Assembly: GCA_013151865.1 (NCBI GenBank)
Contig: JAADHN010000098.1
Coordinates: 1 to 42,181, forward strand
Direction of reading: 5' to 3'
Origin: Kiritimatiellota bacterium
GTDB taxonomy: Bacteria > Verrucomicrobiota > Lentisphaeria > Oligosphaerales > JAADHN01
DNA: 42,181 nt
The notes under the pieces were generated by a model. It was given only the letters and a program-made list of their open reading frames with translations, was not told the origin of the DNA and ran no database searches. The stretch's first letter is position 1, and every line of letters begins with the position of its first letter. This document shows positions 3,386 through 37,777 of this stretch, one piece after another. A program made the translations under genes and the position numbers.

Positions 3386-4837
3386 ATGGCGATTCTGGCG
3401 ATTGACCAGGGAACCACCGGAACGACGACCGTGGTCTTTGGCGCGGACGGGCAACCTTTGGCCAAGGCGTATCGCGAGTTCACCCAGCTTTTTCCACAGC
3501 CCGGCTGGGTCGAGCACGACCCGCTGGAAATCTGGCACACGGTCGAAGAAACCGTGGCGGACGTGCTGTCCCGCACTCGCACCAAGATCGATGCGGTCGG
3601 CATCACCAACCAACGCGAAACCACTGTCCTGTGGGATGCGAAGACCGGCGAGCCCGTCTGCAACGCCATCGTTTGGCAGTGCCGGCGAACGGCTCCGATC
3701 TGCGAGCGGCTCCGCGAGTTTGAGCCCCTGTTTCGGCGTCGGACCGGACTGCCGCTCGATCCGTATTTCAGCGGCACCAAGATCCGTTGGGCGCTCGATA
3801 ATGTGGCGGCCGCCGCCACAGCGCACCTTCGCTTCGGCACAATCGACACGTGGTTGATCTGGAAGTTGACCGGCGGTGCGGTCCATGCCACGGACCCCAC
3901 TAACGCTTCACGGACGTTGTTGTTCGACATTCACGAGCAGCGCTGGGCCTCGGAATTGTGTCGAATCCTGGGGGTGCCGCCCGAGATCCTGCCTGAGGTC
4001 CGCGGGTCTGTGGGGAATTTCGGAAACGTCGTCTCCCTGCCGGGGCTCGCCGGGATCCCGATTCTTGGCGTGGCCGGTGACCAACAGGCAGCCTTGTTCG
4101 GTCAGACCTGCTTCGAACCCGGGGAGGCCAAGAACACGTACGGGACCGGCTGTTTTCTGCTTTTCAACACCGGGGCGCACGCCATCGACTCCCATCACGG
4201 ATTGCTGACCACGCTGGCGGTCGACGGCCGGGGGCGGACGTGCTATGCGGTCGAGGGGTCGGTCTTCGTGGCGGGCGCCGCAGTGCAGTGGCTCCGGGAC
4301 GGTCTCGGACTGATTCGGACTGCCGCCGAAAGCGAAGCTGCGGCCCGGGCCGTGCCCGACAACGGCGGGGTCTACCTCGTACCCGCCTTTGTGGGACTCG
4401 GCGCTCCGCATTGGGACCCGGAGGTTCGAGGTGCGCTGGTCGGTATCACGCGAGGCACGTCCCGGAAGCACGTGATTCGGGCGGCGCTCGAAGCCATTGC
4501 GTTTCAAACGGTGGACGTGGTGCGGGCCATGGAAGAAGACGTGGGCCGCCCGGTACGGAGTTTGGCCGTGGACGGCGGGGCCGCCGCCAACGATTTCCTC
4601 ATGCAGTTTCAGGCCGATGTCCTCGATCGCCCGGTCCAACGACCCCAGATCATCGAGACGACTTCCCGGGGCGCCGCGTTCCTTGCCGGGCTCGGGGCAG
4701 GGGGTTGGAAAGATGCGGAAACATTGCGGTTGCTGACGAAAACCGAACGCACGTTTGTCCCGAGTATGGCGTCGGAGGTCCGCGAGGCATTGCTGAAGGG
4801 TTGGGGCAAAGCACTTCGCCAGGTCCGGACCCGTTGA
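3386..4837 (+). CDS. glpK: Glycerol kinase
   Basis: The 483-residue FGGY-family kinase phosphorylates glycerol to sn-glycerol 3-phosphate with ATP in the cytoplasm. The family hallmarks are visible: phosphate loop DQGTTG at residues 7-12, the substrate-contact motif TNQRETTVLWD near 75-85, the catalytic aspartate in GVAGDQQAALFGQ near 231, and the TYGTGCF adenosine-site motif after it. The length is close to the usual 495-505. The start at 3386 is supported by AGGAG at 3371-3375 and by alignment of MAILAIDQGTTG with other GlpK N-termini. A glycerophosphodiesterase follows after 160 bases in the same direction, consistent with use of phospholipid-derived glycerol and glycerol phosphate. No glycerol facilitator or G3P dehydrogenase is in this window. 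Confidence 0.97.
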   Translation: MAILAIDQGTTGTTTVVFGADGQPLAKAYREFTQLFPQPGWVEHDPLEIWHTVEETVADVLSRTRTKIDAVGITNQRETTVLWDAKTGEPVCNAIVWQCRRTAPICERLREFEPLFRRRTGLPLDPYFSGTKIRWALDNVAAAATAHLRFGTIDTWLIWKLTGGAVHATDPTNASRTLLFDIHEQRWASELCRILGVPPEILPEVRGSVGNFGNVVSLPGLAGIPILGVAGDQQAALFGQTCFEPGEAKNTYGTGCFLLFNTGAHAIDSHHGLLTTLAVDGRGRTCYAVEGSVFVAGAAVQWLRDGLGLIRTAAESEAAARAVPDNGGVYLVPAFVGLGAPHWDPEVRGALVGITRGTSRKHVIRAALEAIAFQTVDVVRAMEEDVGRPVRSLAVDGGAAANDFLMQFQADVLDRPVQRPQIIETTSRGAAFLAGLGAGGWKDAETLRLLTKTERTFVPSMASEVREALLKGWGKALRQVRTR

Positions 4838-4997
4838 CTCATGAGCGGATGCGCCTGAACCGACAGGTTCATTCTGAGATTCATCCCGGGGCCGGCGCCC
4901 CGTTTGGACTTTGGTTGCGGATTTCGTCTCGCAAGTCGGCTTGCCGGGATCGAGACCGGTCCGCACTCGATCCAACAAGTATGCCAGGAGGAAACAG

Positions 4998-5756
4998 ATG
5001 TCCCTCAGCAACGGTCCGGTCGTCGAAGCCCACCGCGGCGATAGTGAGAACGCCCCCGAAAACACGCTTGCCGCATTCAAACAAGCCATGGCCTTGGCCG
5101 TGGAATGGATCGAATTGGATGTGCATCCCACGCGGGACGGCCGACTCGTGGTGCTTCACGACTCCACCGTCGACCGGACAACCGACGGGAGCGGCCCGGT
5201 CGCCGAAATGTCGTCCGCCGAGGTGCGCGAGTTGGACGCGGGCTCCTGGTTCGCACCCGAGTTTGCCGGGGAACGCGTACCGACTCTCGAGGAGACGGTC
5301 GAGTTGACGGCCCTCACGCCGACTCGGCTGAACATCGAGGTCAAAGACGCCCCTGGGATCGAGGCGGTCGCCCGGGAAGTGGCCGGGCTGCTGCGCCGGG
5401 CCGGATGCGAACGCGAGTATGTGGTTTCTTCGTTCGATTCGGCTGCCCTCAATGCGGTCCGCAAAGTCGCTCCCGAAATTACTCTGGCCCTGATCGGGAA
5501 CGGCCCGGAGATCCTCGACCGTGCTCGGTCGGAAGGGATTCCATGGATCCATGCCAATTGGACCACGGCCTATCCGGACGTGGTCGGGGCGGCCCATGCG
5601 CACGGGATCAAAGTCAACATTTGGACCATGGACGATCCCGCCCTATACGCCCATTGGCGCCGCCGCGGGGTCGACAAACTTTGCACCAACCGTCCGGCAC
5701 GGATGCTGGCTGCGGCTGTGGCCCCCGAATCGATTCCCGCCTATCTCGCCCCGTGA
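4998..5756 (+). CDS. Glycerophosphodiester phosphodiesterase, cytoplasmic type
   Basis: The 252-residue protein has the GDPD TIM-barrel signature: HRGDSENAPENTLAAF near residues 12-27, IELDVHPTRDG near 37-47, VVLHDSTVDRTTDG after it, and IEVKDAPG near 115. The two histidines and the ELD acidic residues are the known catalytic and metal-binding positions. It would hydrolyse glycerophosphodiesters to sn-glycerol 3-phosphate and an alcohol. There is no signal peptide, so it acts on imported or internal substrate like UgpQ. AGGAGGAA at 4986-4993 fixes the start. It follows glpK in the same direction and may share its transcript. Confidence 0.93.
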   Translation: MSLSNGPVVEAHRGDSENAPENTLAAFKQAMALAVEWIELDVHPTRDGRLVVLHDSTVDRTTDGSGPVAEMSSAEVRELDAGSWFAPEFAGERVPTLEETVELTALTPTRLNIEVKDAPGIEAVAREVAGLLRRAGCEREYVVSSFDSAALNAVRKVAPEITLALIGNGPEILDRARSEGIPWIHANWTTAYPDVVGAAHAHGIKVNIWTMDDPALYAHWRRRGVDKLCTNRPARMLAAAVAPESIPAYLAP

Positions 5757-34395: not shown

Positions 34396-34920
34396 CTATC
34401 GCCCCCCGTTCCCGCCCCCATTTCCACCGCCCCCGCCGTTGTCGCCGTGCTTCAGGGCTTTGAAACGTTTGCGGGTGCGGAAGGAGCCGATCACCCCGGG
34501 CTCCACCGGGTAGAAACGGGTCTCCATTTTCCCGAGGGGAACACCGCGGTCGGCGATGATCACCGCATAATCCTCGATCTTGTACTGCAAACCCGCCGCC
34601 ATGCACACGTAGCGGATTGCCTCGGAGAGTGGCAGGCTCCGTAAATCCAGGGGGATCTTCGGCCGAGCAGCGGCCGTGACCCGCCGGTCGAGTTCAAGCA
34701 AGAAGTTTACCCCTTCGCCGTCCGGATCGAGCCGCTTCGATTGCTGCTGCAAGAACTGAACCACCTGTTGGATCGTGGCATCCTCGAACTTGAGTCTGGG
34801 CACCACGAGCTTGCGGACCTTTTCAGGGGTCTTGCCGCCCGCGGCAAGCAGAGAAAACGCCGGAACCACCGAGCACAGTCCCAGCAGCGAGACAAAAAAG
34901 AGACGTCGCCGAGCTTTCAT
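34396..34920 (-). CDS. Secreted secretin/STN-domain-like protein with Gly/Asn-rich tail
   Basis: The 174-residue protein has a signal peptide (RRRLFFVSLLGLCSVVPAFSLLAAG), then a single domain: LVVPRLKFEDATIQQVVQFLQQQSKRLD near residues 38-66, IPLDLRSLPLSEAIRYVCMAAGLQYKIEDYAVIIAD near 88-125, and a final GDNGGGGGNGGGNGG tail. The pattern is that of the small periplasmic domains found before secretins and in TonB receptors, but here the outer-membrane secretin part is missing altogether. It may be a stand-alone periplasmic or envelope protein. GGAGG precedes the ATG at 34920. It is transcribed away from the FGGY kinase gene, with an inverted repeat between. Confidence 0.82.
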   Translation of the reverse strand: MKARRRLFFVSLLGLCSVVPAFSLLAAGGKTPEKVRKLVVPRLKFEDATIQQVVQFLQQQSKRLDPDGEGVNFLLELDRRVTAAARPKIPLDLRSLPLSEAIRYVCMAAGLQYKIEDYAVIIADRGVPLGKMETRFYPVEPGVIGSFRTRKRFKALKHGDNGGGGGNGGGNGGR

Positions 34921-35068
34921 CGCGTCCAATCCTCCGCCGGAACGCACTCCGTGCATCCATCGCACCGAGCGCGGGTCGCGTCCAGCGTTGCGAACTCCGC
35001 ACGGCTTTGACCGAGACCCGTTGCGCGGCCGGAAGTCGCACTGCCGCGATGATTTCGCAACCGTGACC

Positions 35069-35115
35069 TACTGTACGTGCCGGAATTGTGCCGCGCAATT
35101 CCGGCACGTACAGTA
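35069..35115. repeat. Perfect 20-bp inverted repeat in divergent promoter region
   Basis: The arm at 35069-35088 (TACTGTACGTGCCGGAATTG) is exactly repeated in reverse complement at 35096-35115, with a 7-base loop (TGCCGCG). It ends 30 bases before the FGGY kinase ATG and starts 148 bases from the divergent gene's ATG. It could be an operator, a hairpin in the kinase leader, or a small mobile palindrome. No T-tract follows, so a simple terminator is unlikely. Confidence 0.85.
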
Positions 35116-35145
35116 CACCGCGGAAAACACACCACCCCCCTGGCC

Positions 35146-36591
35146 ATGAGTGCAGCAAACAGCAACCACGTCGGACCTCGTCTCGGACCCGGGTCCGAAA
35201 CCGCACCGTCGGACTGTCTGTGCGGTATCGACATCGGAACTTCCAAGGTCGCCGCGGTGTTGATCGATCACGAGTGCGGCCGCACTGTGGCGGCGGCATC
35301 CAAGGAACACCACGCAACAGTTCCGGGGCTCGCCTCGAGGTGTGACGAACAGCGGGTCGACGTCCTGCTCGACACCGTTTGGGCCGTCTTGCGCGAACTC
35401 GGACCCACGGTCCTGGCCCGCACCCGCGCCGTGGGCGTCACGGGCCAGATGCACGGCGTGGTGGTGCTGGGTTCCGAGGGGCAACCGCTGACCAACCTGA
35501 TCACTTGGCAGGACCAACGCTGCGACACGGCTTTTCTCGATGCCCTGCACCGAGCGACTGGAATACGCGGACTTCGTACCGGTTTCGGCGCGGCGTCCCT
35601 GGCGTGGCTGCGGAAGAACCGCCTGCTCCCCGACAATGCCGCCGCGACCGCGGCCATTCATGATCACGTGGTTCAGCGCCTTTGCGGCCTTTCCCGGCCG
35701 GTGACAGATCCCACCGACGCCGCGAGTTGGGGCCTGTTCGACCGCCGAACCGGCACGTGGCGCACCGAGGCATGGATTGCCTGCGGCATTCGTCCCGAAC
35801 TGCTTCCCCGGGTTCGGCCCTGCGGCGACTGCGCGGGCCGAATCTGCCCGAACACCGCCGCCGCAACGGGACTGCCGGTCGGCACGCCGGTTGCCGTGGC
35901 ATTGGGGGATAACCAAGCCTCACTGCTGGCCGCCTTGCACGACCGGACGCCCGAACGTGTGTTGGCCTTGACCCTGGGGACGGGCGGGCAGCTTTCGGCA
36001 GTCATGCCGGCCGACTTCGACCCCCCGGAACCACCCGAGGACGCCGCCTTCGAATATCGACCGTTTCCGGGGCGGCGCGTGGCGGCCGTGGCCGCTGCGC
36101 TCTGTGGCGGCAGTTCTTTTGCATGGCTGGTCACGACGGTTCGAACATGGTGCCGCGAACTCGGGCTCCCCATACCGGCGGAGGGCGCTCTGTACGAACT
36201 TCTGGACCGGCTGGGACAAGACGCCGACGGCGGCGGCCTCGAAGTGTCCCCCCGGTTCCTCGGAGAACGTCATGTCCCGGAAGACAGGGCTTGGATCAAG
36301 GGGATCGCGCGCACAAATTTCACGCCGGCAAACTTGGCGCGCGCCCTGGCGGTCGGAACCGTTCGGAACCTCAAGGAAATGCTGCCGACGGCCTGTTTCG
36401 AAGGCCGCGACCGCGTGGTCGGCAGCGGCAACGCCATTCGCCGGTTGCGGCTCCTGCAACAGGCCGCGAGTGAAACCTTAGGCCTCCCGTTGGAGATTTC
36501 GGCTATGCGCGAGGAAGCCGCCGTCGGGGCGGCGCTCTTGGCCAAACCCCTGGCACGGCGACCCCGGCGCAACGACCCGGGACCATCGTAA
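35146..36591 (+). CDS. FGGY-family carbohydrate kinase, sedoheptulokinase-like
   Basis: The 481-residue FGGY kinase has GIDIGTSKVAAV (residues 27-38), GVTGQMHGVVVL (near 100), LITWQDQRCD (near 120), the catalytic aspartate in ALGDNQASLL (near 255), LTLGTGGQ (near 279) and GSGNAIRRL near 425. The segment IHDHVVQRLCGLSRPVTDPTDAASWGLFD and the later FLGERHVPE are much closer to what I recall of animal and bacterial sedoheptulokinase (SHPK) than to xylulokinase, so sedoheptulose is the best substrate guess. No Shine-Dalgarno sequence precedes the ATG at 35146; an in-frame GTG at 35077 lies inside the inverted repeat. A phosphomannose isomerase gene follows after 109 bases. Confidence 0.85.
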   Translation: MSAANSNHVGPRLGPGSETAPSDCLCGIDIGTSKVAAVLIDHECGRTVAAASKEHHATVPGLASRCDEQRVDVLLDTVWAVLRELGPTVLARTRAVGVTGQMHGVVVLGSEGQPLTNLITWQDQRCDTAFLDALHRATGIRGLRTGFGAASLAWLRKNRLLPDNAAATAAIHDHVVQRLCGLSRPVTDPTDAASWGLFDRRTGTWRTEAWIACGIRPELLPRVRPCGDCAGRICPNTAAATGLPVGTPVAVALGDNQASLLAALHDRTPERVLALTLGTGGQLSAVMPADFDPPEPPEDAAFEYRPFPGRRVAAVAAALCGGSSFAWLVTTVRTWCRELGLPIPAEGALYELLDRLGQDADGGGLEVSPRFLGERHVPEDRAWIKGIARTNFTPANLARALAVGTVRNLKEMLPTACFEGRDRVVGSGNAIRRLRLLQQAASETLGLPLEISAMREEAAVGAALLAKPLARRPRRNDPGPS

Positions 36592-36700: not shown

Positions 36701-37777
36701 ATGCAACCGTTCCGCTTCGCCGAGAACCGAGTCTGGCGCTGTTACTTGGGCGGCAAACTGATCGATGAACTCCGCGGGAAGCCGGTCGGGCAAGACTCGC
36801 TCTTCCCGGAGGATTGGATCGCGTCGGTGGTCGAGGCCCGAAATCCGCAGCACCCCGTCCCCGGCGAGGGGATCAGTACGGCAGTGTTCGGCGACCGCCG
36901 GATGTCATTTTCCGACTTGGCCGAACGAGAGGCCGACGCCCTGTTCGGTCCCGCCCACACAACTCGCCACGGACGGACCCCGGCGTTCTTGACCAAGCTC
37001 CTGGATTCCGCCATCCGACTGCCGCTCCAGGCGCACCCGGACCGGGCCGCGGCCCGGCGGCTGTACAATTCCGAATTCGGCAAGACCGAAGCCTGGATCG
37101 TGCTGGGTACACGTCGGATCCAAGGGGAAGATCCGTACCTGCTCCTCGGATTCAACGAGACCTTGGATCCCGAACTCTTTGTGCACGACTGTATTCGCGG
37201 AGAAATGGAACGCCCCCTAAGCATGGTCCACAGGCACCCGGTCAAGCCGGGCGATGTCCTGTTGCTCAGCGGCGGTCTGGTCCATGCCATCGGACCGGGC
37301 GTTTTTCTGGTGGAAATCATGGAACCCACGGACTGGGTGACGCAGCCGGACCCGGTGTGCGGCCTCCAGCCGTTGACCCGCGAGGACCGGTTCGGCCCTC
37401 TGCCGCCGGAAAAGGCCATGGAAGTGTTCCATTTCGAGCCGGCCGCACGGGAGGAAGCCTGGGGTGCTGCGGCTTTGACCCCGCGGATCGAAGGGACCCA
37501 GGGCCGGAGCCGCATGGCGCGACTGATCGGCCCGGAAACCACCACGCTCTTCGGCGCGCTCCGTCTCGAGGTGAACGGGGCATGGCAAGACGATACCCGC
37601 CGTGCCGGCTGCTTTGCCGGAGTGGTGATCGAAGGCGAAGTCGAACTGCGCACCGGGCCGGCAGACGCCCCGCTGCACCTCCGCTCCGGGGATGCTTTCT
37701 TCATGCCGTACTCGACTGGCGCCTACACTTTCGCTGGGAACGGGGTGATCATCTGCGCCCTGCCGCCGGCGTCATAG
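36701..37777 (+). CDS. manA: Class I mannose-6-phosphate isomerase-like cupin
   Basis: The 358-residue protein interconverts mannose 6-phosphate and fructose 6-phosphate if it follows its family. Zinc ligands are visible: Gln-x-His in IRLPLQAHPDRA (near 110), Glu in KTEAWIVLG (near 130) and His in GGLVHAIGPGVFLVEI (near 190-205). A second cupin-like half (EGEVELRTG..LRSGDAFFMPYSTGAYTF) closes the protein. GAGAGGAAA precedes the ATG. It is probably co-transcribed with the FGGY kinase; the two would feed a heptulose and a hexose phosphate into central metabolism. Its stop overlaps the stop of the convergent BatA-like gene by six bases. Confidence 0.88.
   Translation: MQPFRFAENRVWRCYLGGKLIDELRGKPVGQDSLFPEDWIASVVEARNPQHPVPGEGISTAVFGDRRMSFSDLAEREADALFGPAHTTRHGRTPAFLTKLLDSAIRLPLQAHPDRAAARRLYNSEFGKTEAWIVLGTRRIQGEDPYLLLGFNETLDPELFVHDCIRGEMERPLSMVHRHPVKPGDVLLLSGGLVHAIGPGVFLVEIMEPTDWVTQPDPVCGLQPLTREDRFGPLPPEKAMEVFHFEPAAREEAWGAAALTPRIEGTQGRSRMARLIGPETTTLFGALRLEVNGAWQDDTRRAGCFAGVVIEGEVELRTGPADAPLHLRSGDAFFMPYSTGAYTFAGNGVIICALPPAS

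Follow-up and report, generated by a model that had tools for sequence, protein, structure and literature searches.

In the 42,181-nt stretch of Kiritimatiellota DNA analysed here (the window), a gene for an FGGY carbohydrate kinase is divergent from one for a small protein that appears to be exported, and the interval between the two holds a near-perfect palindrome (Table 1). This placement between divergent genes (34396-34920 on the minus strand, kinase ATG 35146 on the plus strand) is as described in the original prediction, which was made from the sequence alone. The leftward gene, whose product has a weak match to STN (secretin/TonB short N-terminal), carries GGAGG 10 nt 5' of its ATG. 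The kinase is followed on the same strand by a ManA-like gene, which possibly shares its transcript. The FGGY domain starts about 25 codons past ATG 35146 and the start of the kinase is thus uncertain: an in-frame GTG lies at 35077, within the palindrome, and the gene caller, a simple codon-score script whose gene starts are approximate, put it at 35257, a position that falls within the FGGY domain. The lack of a Shine-Dalgarno sequence before the kinase had been singled out in the original prediction. None is indeed present in the stretch from the palindrome to ATG 35146, but this is unexceptional, since only about 56% of the called ATG genes of the genome carry one (background 11%). Elsewhere in the window, at 3386-5756, lies what looks like a glycerol operon: another FGGY kinase, this one clearly a glycerol kinase (GlpK), and after it a glycerophosphodiester phosphodiesterase.

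Table 1. Genes, palindrome and predicted promoter elements of the locus
Feature	Position	Strand	Remark
Small, apparently exported protein, weak STN match	34396..34920	-	STN match below Pfam cut-off
Near-perfect palindrome, 47 bp	35069..35115	.	20-bp perfect arms, loop 35089-35095, centre 35092
Predicted -10 box TACAGT, leftward-gene promoter	35070..35075	-	Genome-trained model; 17-bp spacer
Predicted -35 box TTGTGC, kinase promoter	35086..35091	+	Genome-trained model
Predicted -35 box TTGCGC, leftward-gene promoter	35093..35098	-	Genome-trained model
Predicted -10 box TACAGT, kinase promoter	35109..35114	+	Genome-trained model; 17-bp spacer
Predicted kinase mRNA leader	35122..35145	+	Short, unstructured, without Shine-Dalgarno; placed from -10 box
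FGGY carbohydrate kinase	35146..36591	+	Closest to xylulokinase, well below NCBIfam cut-off
Class I mannose-6-phosphate-isomerase-like (ManA-like) protein	36701..37777	+	Both matches below curated cut-offs

The palindrome reads TACTGTACGTGCCGGAATTG-TGCCGCG-CAATTCCGGCACGTACAGTA and ends 30 bp before the kinase ATG. Its arms (35069-35088 and 35096-35115) are complementary without a mismatch over 20 bp and enclose a 7-nt loop; around C35092, 22 of the 23 positions pair, the single T/G mismatch being counted. The position, perfect arms and loop length originally reported are correct, as is the claim that no palindrome of the window is stronger: it is the highest-ranked inverted repeat there. Its arms are also the longest in the 2.37 Mb sampled of the same 6.2-Mb genome, having already ranked first in 1.70 Mb, and three order-2 Markov control sequences of 1.7 Mb each reached a maximum arm of 15. 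The hairpin and promoter statistics given below are drawn from these 2.37 Mb, about 38% of the genome.

Predicted promoter boxes within the palindrome

A promoter model was trained on upstream regions of this genome, from which those of the two genes flanking the palindrome had been excluded, and run over the 226 bp between these genes (34920-35145). On both strands the best predicted promoter of the interval lies inside the palindrome, with a score of 10.5 on the plus strand (runner-up 2.9) and of 10.9 on the minus strand (runner-up 6.2). In a palindrome, one strand gives no evidence that is independent of the other, and the boxes were spotted before the model was built, so that the test is partly post hoc. 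The two -35 boxes stand back to back over the centre of the palindrome and the -10 boxes form its outer ends. Each arm reaches one base past the -10 box at its outer limit and stops at the TTG of the -35 box at its inner limit, and the palindrome therefore coincides almost exactly with two overlapping divergent core promoters. With a box spacing of 17 bp on both strands, within the 16-17 bp typical of this genome, and a match to the genome's own model, the predicted pair has the box arrangement of sigma-70-type divergent promoters, and the divergent orientation of the flanking genes fits this reading, which requires it.

The boxes follow a pattern that is common in this genome. TACAGT occurs 15 times upstream of genes, against 3.2 times in shuffles, and TTGN3-N-TAN3T upstream of called genes gives 29 and 39 hits at spacings 16 and 17, as compared with about 4 in shuffles and only 4-10 at other spacings. 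At spacings 16 and 17, the same pattern is eightfold denser in intergenic DNA (0.82 per kb) than in coding DNA (0.10 per kb). TTGN3-N16/17-TAN3T is thus a genuine, normal sigma-70-type promoter signal of this genome. Scores of 10.5 or more were reached by 0.15% of random palindromes of genome composition and by 0.32% of arm-shuffled versions of this palindrome, and the top promoter score among the other long hairpins tested (n=17) was 4.5. Upstream regions scoring 10 or more numbered 35 in the real set and 10 in the shuffled set, which puts the share of single hits expected by chance at roughly one third. Other observations speak against a promoter: each -10 box agrees with the general consensus in only four of six positions, the -35 boxes agree with it mainly in TTG, and no promoter was called in a generic scan that used an E. 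coli-type cut-off. Pairs of divergent promoters whose -35 boxes are neighbours occur nine times in the genome versus 1.4 times per shuffle, and the pair at 35069-35115 alone is a long palindrome. Strong overlapping divergent pairs that are not palindromic (scores 11-15) lie near position 4958 of contig L107 and near 5666 of L114; the -35 boxes of each pair, like those of the palindrome, overlap or lie next to each other. Directly observed are the sequence of the palindrome, its uniqueness, the scores of the promoter model and the controls.

On these grounds we consider it on balance likely that the palindrome forms the core of a symmetric, mutually exclusive sigma-70-type divergent promoter, written as a mirror image, whose symmetry is unusual and whose function is probably ordinary. 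RNA polymerase would bind the palindrome in one orientation or the other, never in both together; since its footprints at the two sites are bound to overlap, competition between orientations is to be expected. Facing right, the polymerase would transcribe the kinase gene, possibly together with the ManA-like gene; facing left, it would transcribe the gene for the small STN-like protein, giving an mRNA whose leader, about 140 nt long, has a good Shine-Dalgarno sequence. Both start sites are predicted 6-8 bp past the -10 boxes, near 35122 (plus strand) and 35062 (minus strand), beyond the palindrome. The activity of either promoter, the start sites, the competition, any regulation and the origin of the palindrome are deduced here from sequence.

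With both predicted starts beyond its ends, the hairpin would be a feature of the DNA and part of neither local mRNA. The original prediction had offered a stable leader hairpin as one of three options, and the predicted starts of both genes disfavour it. As RNA the palindrome is very stable (-47.7 kcal/mol, z -9.4) and lies 30 nt 5' of the kinase ATG, features that would suit a hairpin in the 5' leader of the kinase mRNA acting on stability, translation control or attenuation. However, the best predicted promoter starts transcription downstream of the hairpin, no plus-strand promoter above 2.9 is found upstream of it within the interval, and the hairpin has neither an Rfam match nor a T-tract, which together make this role unlikely. 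An Rfam search of the window at gathering score returned three tRNAs only and no structured leader, and RNA from 35121-35220, where the kinase mRNA is predicted to begin, folds less stably than shuffled versions do on average. A conspicuous hairpin 5' of a gene is not necessarily an RNA element; the position of the promoter decides. An intrinsic terminator was also considered and rejected: the scan found none, there is no T-tract, and genes start on both sides.

Spacer symmetry and the origin of the palindrome

The mirror symmetry also takes in the ten inner bases of both spacers. Promoter boxes alone explain the symmetry of the boxes and leave the mirror identity of the spacers unaccounted for. 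Most likely, the spacers are identical either because one promoter was duplicated in inverted orientation or because the palindrome houses a symmetric operator. Both are compatible with a divergent promoter. A recent inverted duplication, by template switch or quasipalindrome correction and with little selected function beyond at most a second, mirror promoter, is tentatively suggested by the perfection of the arms, by the presence of other unique long hairpins of unrelated sequence in the genome and by the nearest homologues of the kinase. No long or comparable hairpin lies upstream of these homologues, and in one of them (L058) the kinase ATG comes one base after the stop of a co-directional gene, so that the divergent arrangement seen here is not obviously ancestral. 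On the other side, intergenic DNA makes up 16% of the total yet holds 12 of the 17 hairpins whose arms measure 14 bp or more (p about 1e-6), and such hairpins are therefore not randomly placed.

A large symmetric operator, on which one or two dimers of a regulator would control both genes, is likewise possible but doubtful. The spacer portions of the arms are mirror-identical though promoter boxes need no such symmetry, and the genes are divergent, one of them in sugar metabolism. Yet 47 bp is long for a single dimer, no DNA-binding regulator was recognised among the scanned window proteins, and the other genome matches to the core dyad, with 2-3 mismatches out of 18, lack the arms, which would leave the regulator with one target. 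For a repressor operator, further sites or a conserved site in relatives could be expected; neither turned up in this genome or in the relatives searched, none of which is of the same family. Of the three options originally proposed, the large operator nevertheless came nearest, in that the palindrome coincides with a predicted divergent promoter and may contain an operator as well. An E. coli-type LexA/SOS box (CTGT-N8-ACAG) was rejected, since 35 bp separate the CTGT at one arm end from the ACAG at the other. It is rather unlikely that the symmetry was itself selected as a coin-flip promoter, with a core mirror-identical down to its spacers serving the kinase operon or the exported protein at near-equal, exclusive odds and possibly switched by extrusion of a cruciform or by a single symmetric regulator.

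The remaining option of the original prediction, a palindromic mobile unit, finds no support. A search of the whole 6.2-Mb genome for further copies of the arm, allowing up to 3 mismatches, recovered nothing beyond the palindrome's own two arms and one scattered single match with 3 mismatches, and the 15-bp arm end gave 18 hits against 29 for the reversed control. The single copy, with arm ends at control level, rules out a REP/BIME/MITE family, the outcome that many identical copies would have indicated. The palindrome was not found in 98 related genomes (none of the same family), in 288 other genomes of the phylum, in an exact search of GTDB species contigs, or in phages and plasmids; three viral contigs carry a single arm with no dyad symmetry, as chance matches. 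Although the palindrome ends in TA...TA, as a TA-flanked Tc1/IS630-type palindrome would, these results already largely refute a MITE-like or insertion-sequence relic, which we regard as very improbable. An assembly or fold-back artefact is equally hard to credit. The metagenome-assembled genome is in 176 contigs and fold-back chimaeras can yield perfect hairpins, but the palindrome is internal to a 44.5-kb contig, has a 7-nt loop and unrelated flanks on either side, and contains promoter boxes.

Other long perfect hairpins of the genome, with arms of 16-19 bp and unrelated sequences, are located at L159:5911-5953, L092:444-483, L162:15239-15275, L193:10990-11022 and L160:13445-13477. Some of the genome's other long hairpins lie between convergent genes. 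As a group, these other hairpins are without promoter boxes and probably comprise both terminators that have no clear T-tract and elements of unexplained nature. On contig L137, a 65-base hairpin (ATCCGCGTCCATCCGCGG...) is present in two near-identical copies within 400 bases (35-99 and 364-427), which suggests a repeat family.

Comparison with known systems

Overlapping divergent promoters with shared operators, of the tetR/tetA kind, face away from each other in a short intergenic region and have dyad DNA lying over them. The locus described here is similar in its two predicted divergent promoters, its single short intergenic region and its dyad DNA over the promoters. It differs in that a single dyad takes in both promoters, boxes and spacers included, and in that no regulator gene is adjacent.

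If confirmed, the palindrome would be a natural case of near-complete promoter symmetry, reaching beyond the -10 box and driving two opposite genes, and it would permit a clean test of how RNA polymerase chooses its orientation between almost identical sites.

Perfect inverted repeats have been surveyed in bacteria and are enriched upstream of gene starts and, more strongly, downstream of gene ends, where they are terminator-like (PMC13155455). The palindrome resembles the surveyed repeats in its perfect arms, short spacer and intergenic location; unlike the most strongly enriched class, that of gene ends, it sits between gene starts and contains promoter boxes. Warman, Grainger and colleagues have described bidirectional promoters in E. 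coli and Salmonella (PMC12825309, PMC10268837). In these, the two transcripts begin 7-25 bp from each other, at positions surrounding or inside a -10 element common to both (PMC10268837). Common to these promoters and to the divergent promoter proposed here are symmetric DNA, a polymerase that can bind in either orientation and the exclusion of one binding event by the other. In contrast to the shared -10 class, from which it is excluded by predicted starts about 60 bp apart, the palindrome has separate predicted -10 boxes, and its two predicted -35 boxes stand back to back.
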